A DNA stretch of 64,000 nucleotides from Fimbriimonadaceae bacterium (GTDB lineage Bacteria > Armatimonadota > Fimbriimonadia > Fimbriimonadales > Fimbriimonadaceae). The notes below the pieces were generated by a model. It made no database searches and had not been told where the DNA came from. It was given only the letters and a program-made list of their open reading frames with translations. The position numbers were made by a program, and so were the translations under genes. The stretch lies in contig JAHCHO010000002.1 of assembly GCA_026129685.1 (NCBI GenBank), positions 62,001 to 126,000 of the forward strand, given 5' to 3'. Below, piece by piece: positions 43,996-51,511 of the stretch (position 1 is its first letter; each line of letters starts with the position of its first letter).

Positions 43996-44066
43996 GCTTG
44001 CGCGGAAACCCGCAGTTCTGACGGCCTGTTTTGGGGGACGCGCGACGATGATTGAACCGGGTTCGC

Positions 44067-45380
44067 ATGCGCCGTCTCTTTCTCAACCTGGGTTTGGTCG
44101 CGATCGCCGCCGGCGCGCTTGGACAGCGAATGGCGCCCGCCTTCGCGAGCGACTACCGGCTGATCCCCCTTGGCGTCGTCCCCGGCCATCCCGGCGGCCT
44201 CGGCGCGATCGAATTCGACCCGAACGATCCGAATCTCCTCTTCCTTGGTGCGAACTCCATCGAACCGAACGGAGAACTCTACAAGATTCGGGTCTTGCGC
44301 GACGGGCAGGGGCGCATCGTCGGCTACGATGGTCGCGCCGCGTTGCGCTCGCGCGCCCCCCAAATCGACGGGGGTCTCTGCTTCAGCCCCACCGGCGTGC
44401 TGTTCTACGCCTGCTACCCAACCAACGAACTCGGCCAGATCACTCCGAACTCCGTTGGCCCCCTGAAGACGGCCCGACTCGGCGCGGTCGGGATCAACAG
44501 TTCCATCGGCGCGATTCGCTTCGTGCCGCGCGGATTCCCCGGAGCCGGTTCCCTAAAGCTGGCGAGCTACACCTCGGGCCAATGGTACGACGTCGCCATC
44601 CGCCAAGACGCCGCCGGCACCTACGATGTCGTCGGCTCGAGTTCCATTGAAGGCTCGATCGTCGAAGGCGGGGCCGGAAGCGCCGCGTATGTTCCGCTTC
44701 CCTTCCCCCAGTTCGCCAAACCGAGCGTCTTGGTCACCGAGTTCGACTATCGCAGCGTCTCCGCCTTCGAGCTGTCGGACGACGGGTGCCCCCTGCCGCA
44801 AACGAGGCGCGAGTTCGTCACCGGTTTGATCGGCGTACAGGGTGCGACTCTCGACCGAGGGACCGGCGACCTCCTGCTCACGTCGATGCTGACCAACGAG
44901 ATCACGATCGTCCGCGCCGAGAGTGTCCCCGCCCGCATCACCGGCGGGGTCGTCCTTCAGGACTACGTCGGTTCTCTTGCCAACCTCCCGATCACCGTCT
45001 CGATTCGCAACCGGACGACGGGGGCGGCGATCCAGACCCTCTCCACCCGGCTGAACCGTTACGGCGCCTTTGCCCTCGACACCAACCTGCGCGGCCGGTA
45101 CCGGGTGACCGTGAAGCTGTCGCACTGGCTCCGCGACGCCCGAGACGACGTGTCGATCGGGCCCGGAACCACGCTCGGCGTGGACTTCACGCTTAGGAAC
45201 GGCGACGCAAACGGTGACAACGTCGTCAACGTCGCCGACTTCGTCGTGCTCCGCAACGCCTTCGGCTCGCGCCGAGGGTCGGCGGGGTGGAACGAGATGG
45301 CCGACCTCGATGGCAACGGCTCCGTCGGCACGAGCGATTTCCTCGTTCTTCGCAAGTACTACGGCATGGGCGGCGCCTAG
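44067..45380 (+). CDS. Secreted protein with C-terminal dockerin-like module
   Basis: A 437-residue exported protein with a signal peptide (RLFLNLGLVAIAAGALG). Residues about 30-280 are propeller-like and unassigned (GGLGAIEFDPNDPNLLFLGA). A beta-sandwich (about 285-375) and a type I dockerin-like pair (DANGDNVVNVADF, DLDGNGSVGTSDF; about 380-435) close the protein. The sandwich-plus-dockerin tail, including SHWLR, matches the tail of the protein at 33127-36009. Cohesin partners are not in the window, so the module may be a Ca-binding anchor rather than a cellulosome part. The start could also be the TTG at 44052. Confidence 0.8.
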   Translation: MRRLFLNLGLVAIAAGALGQRMAPAFASDYRLIPLGVVPGHPGGLGAIEFDPNDPNLLFLGANSIEPNGELYKIRVLRDGQGRIVGYDGRAALRSRAPQIDGGLCFSPTGVLFYACYPTNELGQITPNSVGPLKTARLGAVGINSSIGAIRFVPRGFPGAGSLKLASYTSGQWYDVAIRQDAAGTYDVVGSSSIEGSIVEGGAGSAAYVPLPFPQFAKPSVLVTEFDYRSVSAFELSDDGCPLPQTRREFVTGLIGVQGATLDRGTGDLLLTSMLTNEITIVRAESVPARITGGVVLQDYVGSLANLPITVSIRNRTTGAAIQTLSTRLNRYGAFALDTNLRGRYRVTVKLSHWLRDARDDVSIGPGTTLGVDFTLRNGDANGDNVVNVADFVVLRNAFGSRRGSAGWNEMADLDGNGSVGTSDFLVLRKYYGMGGA

Positions 45381-48094: not shown

Positions 48095-48130
48095 TGTAAC
48101 CTCGCGTAACGAGAGAGTCTCGTCAACGTC
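48095..48130 (+). promoter_or_regulatory. Candidate ECF-type promoter with internal palindrome
   Basis: Upstream of the sigma gene two GTAAC boxes occur 10 bp apart (48096-48100 and 48106-48110). The second is followed after exactly 16 bp by CGTC (48127-48130), a layout like many autoregulated ECF promoters. Between them ACGAGA and TCTCGT form a 6-bp inverted repeat (48109-48123). This is a pattern match by eye, not proven. Confidence 0.35.
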
Positions 48131-48173: not shown

Positions 48174-48791
48174 ATGATTCGAACAAGGACCTTTGACGGT
48201 TTGATCGCAGGCAACGCACAGCTGGATACGGACGAAGCCTTGGTGCGGCGGGCGAAGCGCGGCGAATACTCCGCGTTCGAGACGCTGTACGAGCGCCACC
48301 GTGCGCTCGTGTACCGCTTCGCCTACCAGATGTTGCCGAGACGCGACGATGCCGAAGATATCACCCAAGAGGCGTTCGTGCGCGCGTACCAGAACCTGGA
48401 CCGGTACCGAGACGAGGCCAAATTCACGACTTGGCTTCTTCGGATCGTCACCAACCTTTGCACCGATCGGTCCCGGATGTCCCAGCGACGGACCAACCTC
48501 GAAACCCAGGAGGCGGCGGGAGCCCTCGCTTGGATGACGATCGGGATTCAGGACGACCCGGTGGAGAACCTGGAGGGCGACCGGCGGATGCACGCGATCA
48601 AGACCGCCCTCGGGGCCCTACCCCTCCATCACCGGACGGCGATCGTCCTTCGCGACATCGAAGAGCGCGAGTACGACGAGATCGCCTCGATTTTCGGGTG
48701 CAGCGTGGGTGGAGCGAAGCTCAGAGTGCTTCGCGCCCGGCGCGCCCTGCGCGACCGCGTCGCTCCCTTGATCGGAGAGACAACGACATGA
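48174..48791 (+). CDS. ECF-type sigma-70 family RNA polymerase sigma factor
   Basis: A 205-residue extracytoplasmic-function sigma factor. Region 2 (about 28-95) includes LVYRFAYQMLPRRDDAEDITQEAFVRAYQNLDRYRDEAKFTTWLLRIVTNLC, of which DAEDITQEAF is the polymerase- and -10-binding core. Region 4 (about 140-195) has LPLHHRTAIVLRDIEEREYDEIA and a helix-turn-helix that reads the -35 box. It overlaps the next gene by 4 bp (ATGA), as expected for a sigma/anti-sigma pair. A promoter it might itself read lies upstream. Confidence 0.95.
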   Translation: MIRTRTFDGLIAGNAQLDTDEALVRRAKRGEYSAFETLYERHRALVYRFAYQMLPRRDDAEDITQEAFVRAYQNLDRYRDEAKFTTWLLRIVTNLCTDRSRMSQRRTNLETQEAAGALAWMTIGIQDDPVENLEGDRRMHAIKTALGALPLHHRTAIVLRDIEEREYDEIASIFGCSVGGAKLRVLRARRALRDRVAPLIGETTT

Positions 48792-49561
48792 AGAACATAC
48801 CGGAAGATGATCTGATCCGGATCGCCTTTGGCGAAGCCTCCGAAGAGGAAGCTCAGCGGTTGCTGGCGGGGGCCGACCCTGGGTCCGCCATGAAGCTGGA
48901 CCTCTATCGGCGCCTGTGCGCCGACCTTCGCGGCATGGCGTCCGACGTTCCCGAACCGCAACTCTCGCAGGAGCGGCTGCAGGAGGCGATTCTGCGCGCC
49001 GGCCTGAAGCGTGAGCGTCGTGCGTGGTCTTGGACTTGGGCCTTCGCCCCGGTGGCGGCACTGGCGATCGGTGTTCTGTTCATCAACCGTCGCCCCGACC
49101 TGGTCGAACCCGTCCAACCTAACCGCGAGACGATCGAAGCTCCCGAAGCCGCGACCCAGGGCCCCGTCGCCCCTGCGCCGAAGACTTCGCCCGGCCCGGC
49201 CGTCGCCGAGGTCCGCCCCTCCGGAGCGCCCGTGGCCCCGGTCGCCGCGCCAAAGCGCTACGTTCGCCTCGGCGGCGCCGCGCGAAACAAGTCGACCATC
49301 CCCGTGACCGGCGGTCTCGCTGCCGATGCGATGCGGAATCTCGCCTTCTTAGGGGCGTCCAAGCGCAGTGCGCCCGAACTCGCCTCTCGGGGCGACGCCG
49401 CACCTCGGGCCGGCTCCTCGGACCCCGCGCGCACGTCGGTCGACGCCGCAGCCCCCGCAGATGCCATGATCGTGCTTATCGCCTCGGAAACCGATGCGGC
49501 TACCGGAGCGAACCTGGCCATCGAGGTGGCCTCGACCAGCAATGTTGTCATCGGTAGTTAG
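48788..49561 (+). CDS. Probable anti-sigma factor, single membrane span
   Basis: A 257-residue protein. The N-terminal 80 residues are helical and charged (DDLIRIAFGEASEEEAQRLLAG), like anti-sigma domains of the ASD/zinc-less type; no HxxxCxxC zinc motif is seen. One membrane span (WTWAFAPVAALAIGVLFI, about 85-105) is followed by a long Ala/Pro-rich outer region of low complexity. Position (4-bp overlap with the sigma gene) and topology make an anti-sigma role likely. It overlaps the next gene by 20 bp. Confidence 0.75.
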   Translation: MKNIPEDDLIRIAFGEASEEEAQRLLAGADPGSAMKLDLYRRLCADLRGMASDVPEPQLSQERLQEAILRAGLKRERRAWSWTWAFAPVAALAIGVLFINRRPDLVEPVQPNRETIEAPEAATQGPVAPAPKTSPGPAVAEVRPSGAPVAPVAAPKRYVRLGGAARNKSTIPVTGGLAADAMRNLAFLGASKRSAPELASRGDAAPRAGSSDPARTSVDAAAPADAMIVLIASETDAATGANLAIEVASTSNVVIGS

Positions 49562-50504
49562 CCTGGCGGTCGGACTCCTCGGCTTTGGACAGCTCAGTTC
49601 GCAGGAACTGGCCGTCTGGAAGCGCATCGAGTCGTCCGTCGTCATGATCGAACAAGGCGACCGGATCGTCGGTCCCGCCGCCCTGATCGACGCGCGCGGC
49701 TTCTTCGTCGCCCACAAGAGCGTCGTCCTCGGCGGAAAGGTACGGGGGAGACGCTCGAACGGCGAGCTCGTCGAGTTCGACGCCCGTGCGACCGACGAGG
49801 CGAGCCAACTCGTGCTCCTCGAGGCGTCCGGCTGGCAAGCCGCGAGCGTCAGTCCCTTCACCGTCGTCTCGGACCGGGAGCGTCCCGGCGCCCGCCTGCT
49901 CGCCGTCATCGGACAGGGCCCGATGCGTGCCCAGGTGTCCTCGCAGGTCGTCTTCGGTTTGGTGGATCGCTCCCAGCGCGCCGCCATGCTGACGCCCGTC
50001 GAGTTCGAAGTGCCCCTATCGCAAGTGGCGGGCGCGATCCTGTTCTCGCTCGACGGACGTCTCGTCGGTCCGATCGCGGGAACCCTCGGCACCGACAGCG
50101 TACGCACCCAGTTCGAGCGGAACGTCGCTCAGGGCCTGGCCAACCGAAAGTCGTTCGGACCGGCCGCCATCGCGACGGGCTACACCCTCGGCCCGAACGT
50201 GGTGCGCCGGGTGGTGGACGGCTTTCGCTCCCCCGGCTTTCGCGTCCAGCATCCGCGGATCGGCGTGTTCTGCGTCGATGAGCCCGGCGGGGGCGCCCTC
50301 GTCCAGACCGTTGAGAAGGGCTCGCCGGGTTACCTTATCGGCCTCCGGACGGGCGACGTGGTGCTCGCTCTGGACGGCCGCCCGGTCCGCAACCAGGTCG
50401 AGTTGTCCTCCATGATCTTCGAGTGCCAGGTGGGCCAGATCGTGCGAATCACCTACGTGCGCGACCGCGTTACCACTCACGCGAGCATCGTTGTCGGAAC
50501 CTAG
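49542..50504 (+). CDS. HtrA-like PDZ protein with degenerate protease domain
   Basis: A 320-residue exported protein with a signal or anchor (VVSLAVGLLGFGQLSS). Residues about 25-185 follow the HtrA/Deg trypsin-fold pattern but the catalytic triad seems lost: aligning GFFVAHKSVV to GYIVTNAHVV puts Ser60 at the His position, SQLVLLE puts Gln89 at the Asp, and VAGAILFSLDG puts Ala163 at the Ser. A C-terminal PDZ domain (about 225-315; GSPGYLIGLRTGDVVLALDG) is intact. The start overlaps the anti-sigma gene. It probably senses or tethers envelope peptides rather than cutting them; this is inference. Confidence 0.8.
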   Translation: MLSSVVSLAVGLLGFGQLSSQELAVWKRIESSVVMIEQGDRIVGPAALIDARGFFVAHKSVVLGGKVRGRRSNGELVEFDARATDEASQLVLLEASGWQAASVSPFTVVSDRERPGARLLAVIGQGPMRAQVSSQVVFGLVDRSQRAAMLTPVEFEVPLSQVAGAILFSLDGRLVGPIAGTLGTDSVRTQFERNVAQGLANRKSFGPAAIATGYTLGPNVVRRVVDGFRSPGFRVQHPRIGVFCVDEPGGGALVQTVEKGSPGYLIGLRTGDVVLALDGRPVRNQVELSSMIFECQVGQIVRITYVRDRVTTHASIVVGT

Positions 50505-51511
50505 CGCGCTGCCACCGGTCCCCCCTCCGCCAGCCCCAGATACCGAAGGGCCAGGCCAAGGGCCTTGCGTTGTGGCGCCGGCATCGGTGTTTCCGCGAGT
50601 TCGGCGACCGTGCGCCACGAGAACCCCTCTTCGCCCTCGACAACGCGCCGGAGCCGCACGCGATAGCGGATGCGATGATGGGTCACGCTGTGCCGGAAAG
50701 TCCCCAGTTCCTCCGACCACGGGCCCGCCGACGACGCTTCGGGAAACTCCCAAAGGCCTTCCCACCATCCCCCCGGGGGTATCCGACGCACTGCGAACCG
50801 GTCGCCCATCCAAAGCAATTCGATCGTGCGCGACTCGTGCACGGTCGCGGTGCGCCGCGCCACCGCCGGACGCGCCGCGACCGTTCCGTTGATCGCCGCC
50901 AGGCACCAAGCTCTCAAGGGGCACCCGCTGCAGTCGGGGGCATCCCGCCGGCACACGAGGGCGCCCAGTTCCATGAGCGCCTGGTTCCAGTCGCCGGGAT
51001 TGGCACGGTCGAGCGATCGTTCCGCCCAATCCCAAGCACGACGATGGAGGTCGCCGTCGGTCGCCAGATCGTCGACGACCCGCGCGTAGACCCTCTCCAC
51101 GTTGCCGTCGACGACCGGAGCGGCCTCGCCATAGCAGATCGAGGCGATCGCTCCGGCCGTGTACCGCCCGACGCCCGGAATGGCCCGCCACCCCTTCGCC
51201 GTCGCCGGCCAACCTTCGGCGACCACCCGCCGTGCGCCCTCGAGAAGAAGGCGGCACCGACGGTAGTAGCCAAGGCCCTGCCAGGCGGCCAGGACTTCTT
51301 CCTCGGAAGCTTGTGCCAACGCCTCGACCCCTGGGAAACGCCGCATCCAGGCTTCGTAATACGGCAACGCCGTCGCGACTTGGGTCTGCTGCAACATGAC
51401 CTCGCTCACCCACACGGAGTACGGATCCTTCGTCCGGCGCCAAGGAAGGTCGCGGCCCGCGCGCCGGAACCACTGGGCAAGCGCCCGACGCGCCTCCTCG
51501 GGTAGGGGCAC
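50501..51511 (-). CDS. mutY: Adenine DNA glycosylase
   Basis: Removes adenine mispaired with 8-oxoguanine. The 336-residue protein has DLPWRRTKDPYSVWVSEVMLQQTQV, the helix-hairpin-helix IPGVGRYTAGAIASI with the following catalytic Asp in VVDGNVERV, and four cysteines spaced C-x6-C-x2-C-x5-C (CRRDAPDCSGCPLRAWC) for the iron-sulfur cluster. A C-terminal NUDT1-like domain (ELLWMGDRFAVRRIPPGGWWEGLWEFP) recognises 8-oxoG. It is 3 bp after pyrF and ends in a 4-bp convergent overlap. Confidence 0.96.
   Translation of the reverse strand: MPLPEEARRALAQWFRRAGRDLPWRRTKDPYSVWVSEVMLQQTQVATALPYYEAWMRRFPGVEALAQASEEEVLAAWQGLGYYRRCRLLLEGARRVVAEGWPATAKGWRAIPGVGRYTAGAIASICYGEAAPVVDGNVERVYARVVDDLATDGDLHRRAWDWAERSLDRANPGDWNQALMELGALVCRRDAPDCSGCPLRAWCLAAINGTVAARPAVARRTATVHESRTIELLWMGDRFAVRRIPPGGWWEGLWEFPEASSAGPWSEELGTFRHSVTHHRIRYRVRLRRVVEGEEGFSWRTVAELAETPMPAPQRKALGLALRYLGLAEGGPVAAR

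Follow-up and report, generated by a model that had tools for sequence, protein, structure and literature searches.

The 64,000-nucleotide stretch of DNA analysed here (the window) carries, between positions 48174 and 50504, three genes that lie on one strand and overlap one another, as the original prediction had described them. The first (48174..48791, +) encodes a sigma factor of 205 aa, which matches Pfam Sigma70_r2 and Sigma70_r4_2 above cut-off as well as TIGR02937 (sigma70-ECF) and has the sigma-70 regions 2 and 4 without region 3 that characterise an ECF factor. It overlaps by 4 nt (ATGA) with the gene for a membrane anti-sigma factor of 257 aa (48788..49561, +), assigned from its position after the sigma gene and from its fold model. 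The third gene (49542..50504, +) encodes an HtrA-like pseudoprotease of 320 aa with an N-terminal signal sequence and a PDZ domain, identified by an AlphaFold model, a structure search and a profile alignment to DegP; we refer to it as pseudo-HtrA. Its reading frame shares 20 nt (49542..49561, +) with the anti-sigma gene. An alternative start at 49494 is allowed by the rules for open reading frames; most relatives, though, share the ATG at 49542 as their start. An ECF sigma factor paired with a membrane anti-sigma factor is a main bacterial way to sense envelope stress, and in the textbook system the envelope signal is read by an active HtrA protease of the DegS type.

A survey of relatives bears out the gene order. 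The pseudo-HtrA gene of the window's family is present in most of the 85 genomes in the family search, the order sigma, anti-sigma, pseudo-HtrA is kept on one strand in every locus of that family with enough flanking sequence, and in most of these loci the overlap of the second and third genes is again exactly 20 nt. Two reduced genomes, each 97% complete (G060 and G061), lack the orthologues of both the sigma factor and pseudo-HtrA. In sigma relatives at a greater distance (L155-L162 and others) the anti-sigma gene is present with no HtrA-like gene behind it. Comparison of the neighbours of these loci revealed no conserved fourth operon gene, the usual downstream neighbour being a convergent gene. 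A pseudogene or an assembly error was rejected, as the open reading frame is intact and is conserved in most genomes of the family.

Several neighbouring genes may be recorded here. In the window, a MutY-like adenine glycosylase gene (50501-51511, −; named by eye) converges on the pseudo-HtrA gene, and the stop codons of the two overlap by a few bases. About 12 loci of the family (L050-L062) have a gene resembling D-aminoacyl-tRNA deacylase (protein start MRAIVQRV) directly before the sigma gene on the same strand. Further upstream in the window, a secreted-looking protein (44052-45380, +) ends in two dockerin-like repeats (DxNGDxxVNxxDF), and the end of a trypsin-like protein at another locus (L005) is similar to these repeats, both by eye.

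A putative autoregulatory ECF promoter, GTAAC-N16-CGTC, lies near the start of the sigma gene (48106..48130, +). Of 104 loci, 42 carry the general pattern GTAAC-N15-17-CGT[ACT] upstream of the sigma gene; the reverse strand gives 3 and shuffled sequence about 2. No genome-wide enrichment was found: the window's own genome holds 14 occurrences against 8 in the reversed control, and in the genomes of two relatives the pattern does not rise above the control. The motif would accordingly support autoregulation only, and no wider regulon.

Fold of pseudo-HtrA and loss of its catalytic triad

The claim that the third gene product combines an HtrA fold with a PDZ domain is well founded. The AlphaFold model, built from an alignment of 66 relatives, has a mean pLDDT of 91 and a pTM of 0.86, and its best match among solved structures is PepD of Mycobacterium tuberculosis (Z 26.3 over 271 residues, 20% identity). 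DegP, DegQ and DegS follow with Z scores of 20-25, and AlgW and the HtrA protease MucD are also listed. The model places a trypsin-like domain at residues about 20-200 (49599..50141, +) and a PDZ domain at residues 238-317 (50253..50492, +; Pfam PDZ_2, E 3.6e-10), the domain succession of the S1C (HtrA/DegP/DegS) fold. Pfam detects a PDZ domain in 66/66 relatives and Trypsin_2 in 18/66, the window's protein not being among these 18.

The His-Asp-Ser triad of active HtrA, DegP and DegS proteases is absent. A by-eye reading had placed Ser, Gln and Ala at the catalytic positions, and the same columns emerge from profile alignment, in which the family profile matches DegP at an E value of about 1e-35. 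Taking the catalytic residues of DegP to be His105, Asp135 and Ser210, we find Ser60 (49719..49721, +) opposite H105, a column with His in 0/75 family members; Gln89 (49806..49808, +) opposite D135, where Gln occurs in 50/75 and Asp in 2/75; and Ala163 (50028..50030, +) opposite S210, where Gly (54/75) and Ala (11/75) far outnumber Ser (3/75). Not one of these 75 aligned sequences, whose median pairwise identity is 30%, keeps two triad residues. A triad rescued by His58 is likewise not supported, on grounds of conservation rather than of distances: this residue lies opposite DegP N103, the first Asn of TNNH and two residues before the His column, and is found in 48/75 relatives of the window's family. 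A metal-binding reading built on His58 was rejected because the residue is not conserved, and the family alignment contains no near-invariant His.

The loss extends well beyond the window's family, and the residues that now fill the lost positions differ from one family to another. Within the order, family f2 has Glu, Asp or Pro at the His position, mostly keeps the Asp and has lost the Ser; in f3 the His position holds Glu or Asp, the Asp position Gly (once Asn) and the Ser position mostly Pro, Gln or Ser; and one protein of f4 reads E-R-S. In the two families outside the order, the triad positions read D-N-S in f19 and E/D-N-S in f13, the catalytic Ser being kept in both. The D/E-N-S of the f13 and f19 proteins (L120-L131, L144-L154, L163) forms a consistent pattern rather than one of random decay. 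Altogether 121 sequences from six families of one phylum (75+8+16+1+7+14), plus cut ones, were compared, some of them at contig ends, where orthology is shown and linkage is not. The catalytic His is present in 0/121 of these operon-linked or orthologous proteins and none has more than one triad residue. The loss is more than a peculiarity of one locus, and a complete triad occurs in no operon-linked relative. Ordinary HtrAs of the same phylum, encoded away from the sigma gene, have H-D-S intact, and so do L002 and L003 of the window's own genome. In a tree whose root is not fixed, a branch with 100/100 support separates the H-D-S proteins from all operon-linked proteins, a topology that fits a single ancient loss of the His. 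That pseudo-HtrA is catalytically dead, and that the loss is old and conserved, is strongly supported by these alignments.

The protein nevertheless remains, to judge from its sequence, under selection, since D85, P207 and G241 are invariant at a median identity of 30%, the open reading frame is intact and the fold is confidently predicted. G241, presumed to be the Gly of the carboxylate-binding loop of the PDZ domain, is invariant in 74/74 sequences.

The anti-sigma factor and its conserved tail

The model of the anti-sigma factor comprises a helical N-terminal domain (helices within residues 6-71), one TM helix, a disordered linker and a C-terminal hairpin module. The predicted TM segment spans residues about 82-100 (49031..49087, +), on the strength of a modelled helix at 87-100 and the hydrophobicity of the orthologues. 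It is followed by a linker of some 120 residues that is predicted to be disordered (pLDDT 45-58). No Pfam family matches the protein above cut-off, and a fold search gave no match with an E value below 0.001. Anti-sigma orthologues of sister families carry the HxxxCxxC motif of the ZAS class, one of them with zf-HC2 above cut-off, and the motif occurs in 0/72 anti-sigma factors of the window's family. Zinc-free class I anti-sigma factors (ASDI) are common (PMC7406223), and the window's protein has their features: a small helical N-terminal domain, a gene directly after that of the ECF factor, and a TM helix.

The outer end of the protein is its most distinctive part. Residues 225-257 (49460..49558, +) form a conserved module consisting of a beta-hairpin and the ending NVVIGS; the modelled strands 228-235 and 242-247 have a pLDDT of about 90 and the last stretch is looser. 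Measured in bits per column, conservation is 1.19 for the linker, 2.14 for the final 33 residues and 3.13 for the final five. The consensus ending in the window's family is TGAxxATEVxxxxNVVxGG, with the terminal GG present in 60/72 sequences. The ending differs by family: VxGG is shared by f1 and f2, f3 ends in SF-COOH, f19 in VE and f13 mostly in Y or W. Ser-Phe closes nearly all anti-sigma tails of the f3 loci (L102-L119) and is similar to the aromatic C-termini that PDZ domains of the DegS type bind.

Within the overlap, the wobble positions of the HtrA frame hold a fixed G where they coincide with the first positions of the two GG codons of the anti-sigma factor (55/59 and 53/59 loci), whereas third positions of the HtrA frame downstream of the overlap vary freely; the TGAxxATEV stretch lies upstream of the overlap and is still conserved. 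The fixed wobble G and the conserved stretch outside the overlap together argue that gene overlap alone cannot explain the conserved tail. A conserved tail end is in itself no proof of HtrA binding either, because some relatives in f31 that lack an HtrA gene also share a short tail (EDWL/EEWL). A Gly-Gly C-terminus is, moreover, not a usual PDZ ligand, and this counts against a reading in which the tail sits in the PDZ groove. Recognition by PDZ domains usually involves the three or four residues at the C-terminus of the target (PMC8103513), and PDZ domains of the DegS type bind YxF ends (PMC8545111).

A possible guard on an HtrA scaffold

The original prediction went on to suggest that a dead protease with a working PDZ domain would act as a sensor or shield and so control the anti-sigma factor in its own way. 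The dead protease, with its old and conserved loss, has stood; that pseudo-HtrA controls the anti-sigma factor is supported only indirectly, by the strict gene linkage, the intact PDZ domain and the conserved tail module. The reading that we favour, and hold to be somewhat better than an even bet, is that pseudo-HtrA is an RseB-like guard that holds the anti-sigma tail, with separate DegS-like and RseP cutters.

We tentatively propose the following sequence of events. The sigma factor would be held inside the cell by the anti-sigma factor, whose disordered tether ends outside in the hairpin and the C-terminal peptide. Pseudo-HtrA would grip this tail, most likely by the PDZ groove and perhaps by the dead cleft too, and the gripped tail would be shielded from the true site-1 protease. 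An envelope signal, which may be a competing peptide or a lipid, would loosen the grip, whereupon a DegS-like protease would make the first cut and one of the RseP type the second; the sigma factor thus freed would raise expression of its own operon. Elsewhere in the genome there are candidates for both cutters, namely an H-D-S protease that is anchored by a TM segment and has a single PDZ domain (L002), and an RseP-type protease. Within this scheme we infer the binding of the tail, the negative sign of the control, the signal and the identity of the cutting protease.

Precedent for such logic comes from RseB and MucB, which bind the outer domain of the anti-sigma factor and block cleavage by DegS and AlgW (PMC8103513, PMC8545111). 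As proposed here, the window's system would resemble E. coli RseA-RseB-DegS-RseP and Pseudomonas aeruginosa MucA-MucB-AlgW in having a periplasmic cover that stays in place until a signal arrives (PMC8103513, PMC8545111). Unlike RseB and MucB, which have a lipid-binding fold (PMC8545111), the partner in the window has, by the structure search, an HtrA plus PDZ fold and not that of RseB. If the guard reading is true, the protease fold itself would be the shield.

The main rival is that pseudo-HtrA is an output of the system, a protease-dead periplasmic chaperone for misfolded envelope proteins that shares the operon for co-expression only. An HtrA gene is often part of the regulon controlled by the ECF factor encoded beside it, as in the rpoE-rseA-mucD operon of Stenotrophomonas and Xanthomonas (PMC4229105), HtrA of gram-positive bacteria is credited with chaperone as well as protease function (PMC12826053), and the promoter of the present operon looks autoregulatory. 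Such a role would, however, leave the conserved C-terminal module of the anti-sigma factor and the tie of this particular copy to the operon unexplained, in a genome that already has active HtrAs, and we consider it unlikely, at odds of perhaps one in a handful.

In a further reading, to which we give a similarly low probability, pseudo-HtrA would be a competition sensor whose PDZ groove normally holds the anti-sigma C-terminus; misassembled outer-membrane proteins would push it out with their own C-termini, and the released tail would be cut. The clearest case would be the Ser-Phe tails of f3, which recall the YxF peptides that DegS binds. If this is true, the stress signal is read by a protein that never cuts.

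Pseudo-HtrA could also act with the opposite sign, delivering the tail to an active HtrA or stimulating cutting within a mixed oligomer. The analogy is with MamO, a degenerate HtrA that activates MamE without catalysis of its own (PMC4794232), and potential active partners exist in the genome. The activating function of MamO, however, maps to its transporter domain, which pseudo-HtrA lacks, and we consider this reading improbable, more so than the chaperone role. Finally, it is very improbable that pseudo-HtrA has remained a protease by means of an atypical set of catalytic residues. The Ser retained in f13 and f19, where the His column holds Asp or Glu and the Asp column Asn, and the His58 of 48/75 family members could be taken in favour of such activity. 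Against it, nearly all f1 and f2 sequences have Gly or Ala in the Ser column, with no conserved replacement nucleophile, and His58 is not conserved and sits at a different position.

Relation to known systems

In gene content the closest parallel is rpoE-rseA-mucD of Stenotrophomonas and Xanthomonas, where an ECF sigma factor, a membrane anti-sigma factor and an HtrA-family gene form one autoregulated operon (PMC4229105); the difference is that MucD is described as an HtrA protease, whereas in all relatives of the window's pseudo-HtrA that were compared the triad is lost. MamO of magnetotactic bacteria is likewise an HtrA-family protein that has lost catalysis and taken on another role (PMC4794232). 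MamO, however, serves magnetite formation, binds metal through a di-His motif, has a transporter domain and has no link to a sigma or anti-sigma factor, and neither Pfam nor the AlphaFold model places a transporter domain in the 320-aa pseudo-HtrA. M. tuberculosis PepD (Rv0983) shares with pseudo-HtrA a protease domain followed by one PDZ domain and is connected to the SigE stress network (PMC3062566). PepD, however, is an active protease, and its gene is described as under the control of MprAB and SigE rather than as the third member of an ECF operon.

HtrA genes in ECF operons (PMC4229105) and HtrA pseudoproteases, such as MamO, are thus each already known. In the open-licence literature, subscription papers being outside the scope of the search, we found no report that joins an HtrA pseudoprotease to an ECF operon. 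The locus presents an HtrA-fold protein that is predicted not to cut and that is tied to an anti-sigma gene across several families of one phylum. The tail, the PDZ domain and the differing endings of the sister families make this a system that can be tested with peptides. If the tail is indeed held, the HtrA scaffold would have been reused as a guard in a setting where its relatives are the cutters.
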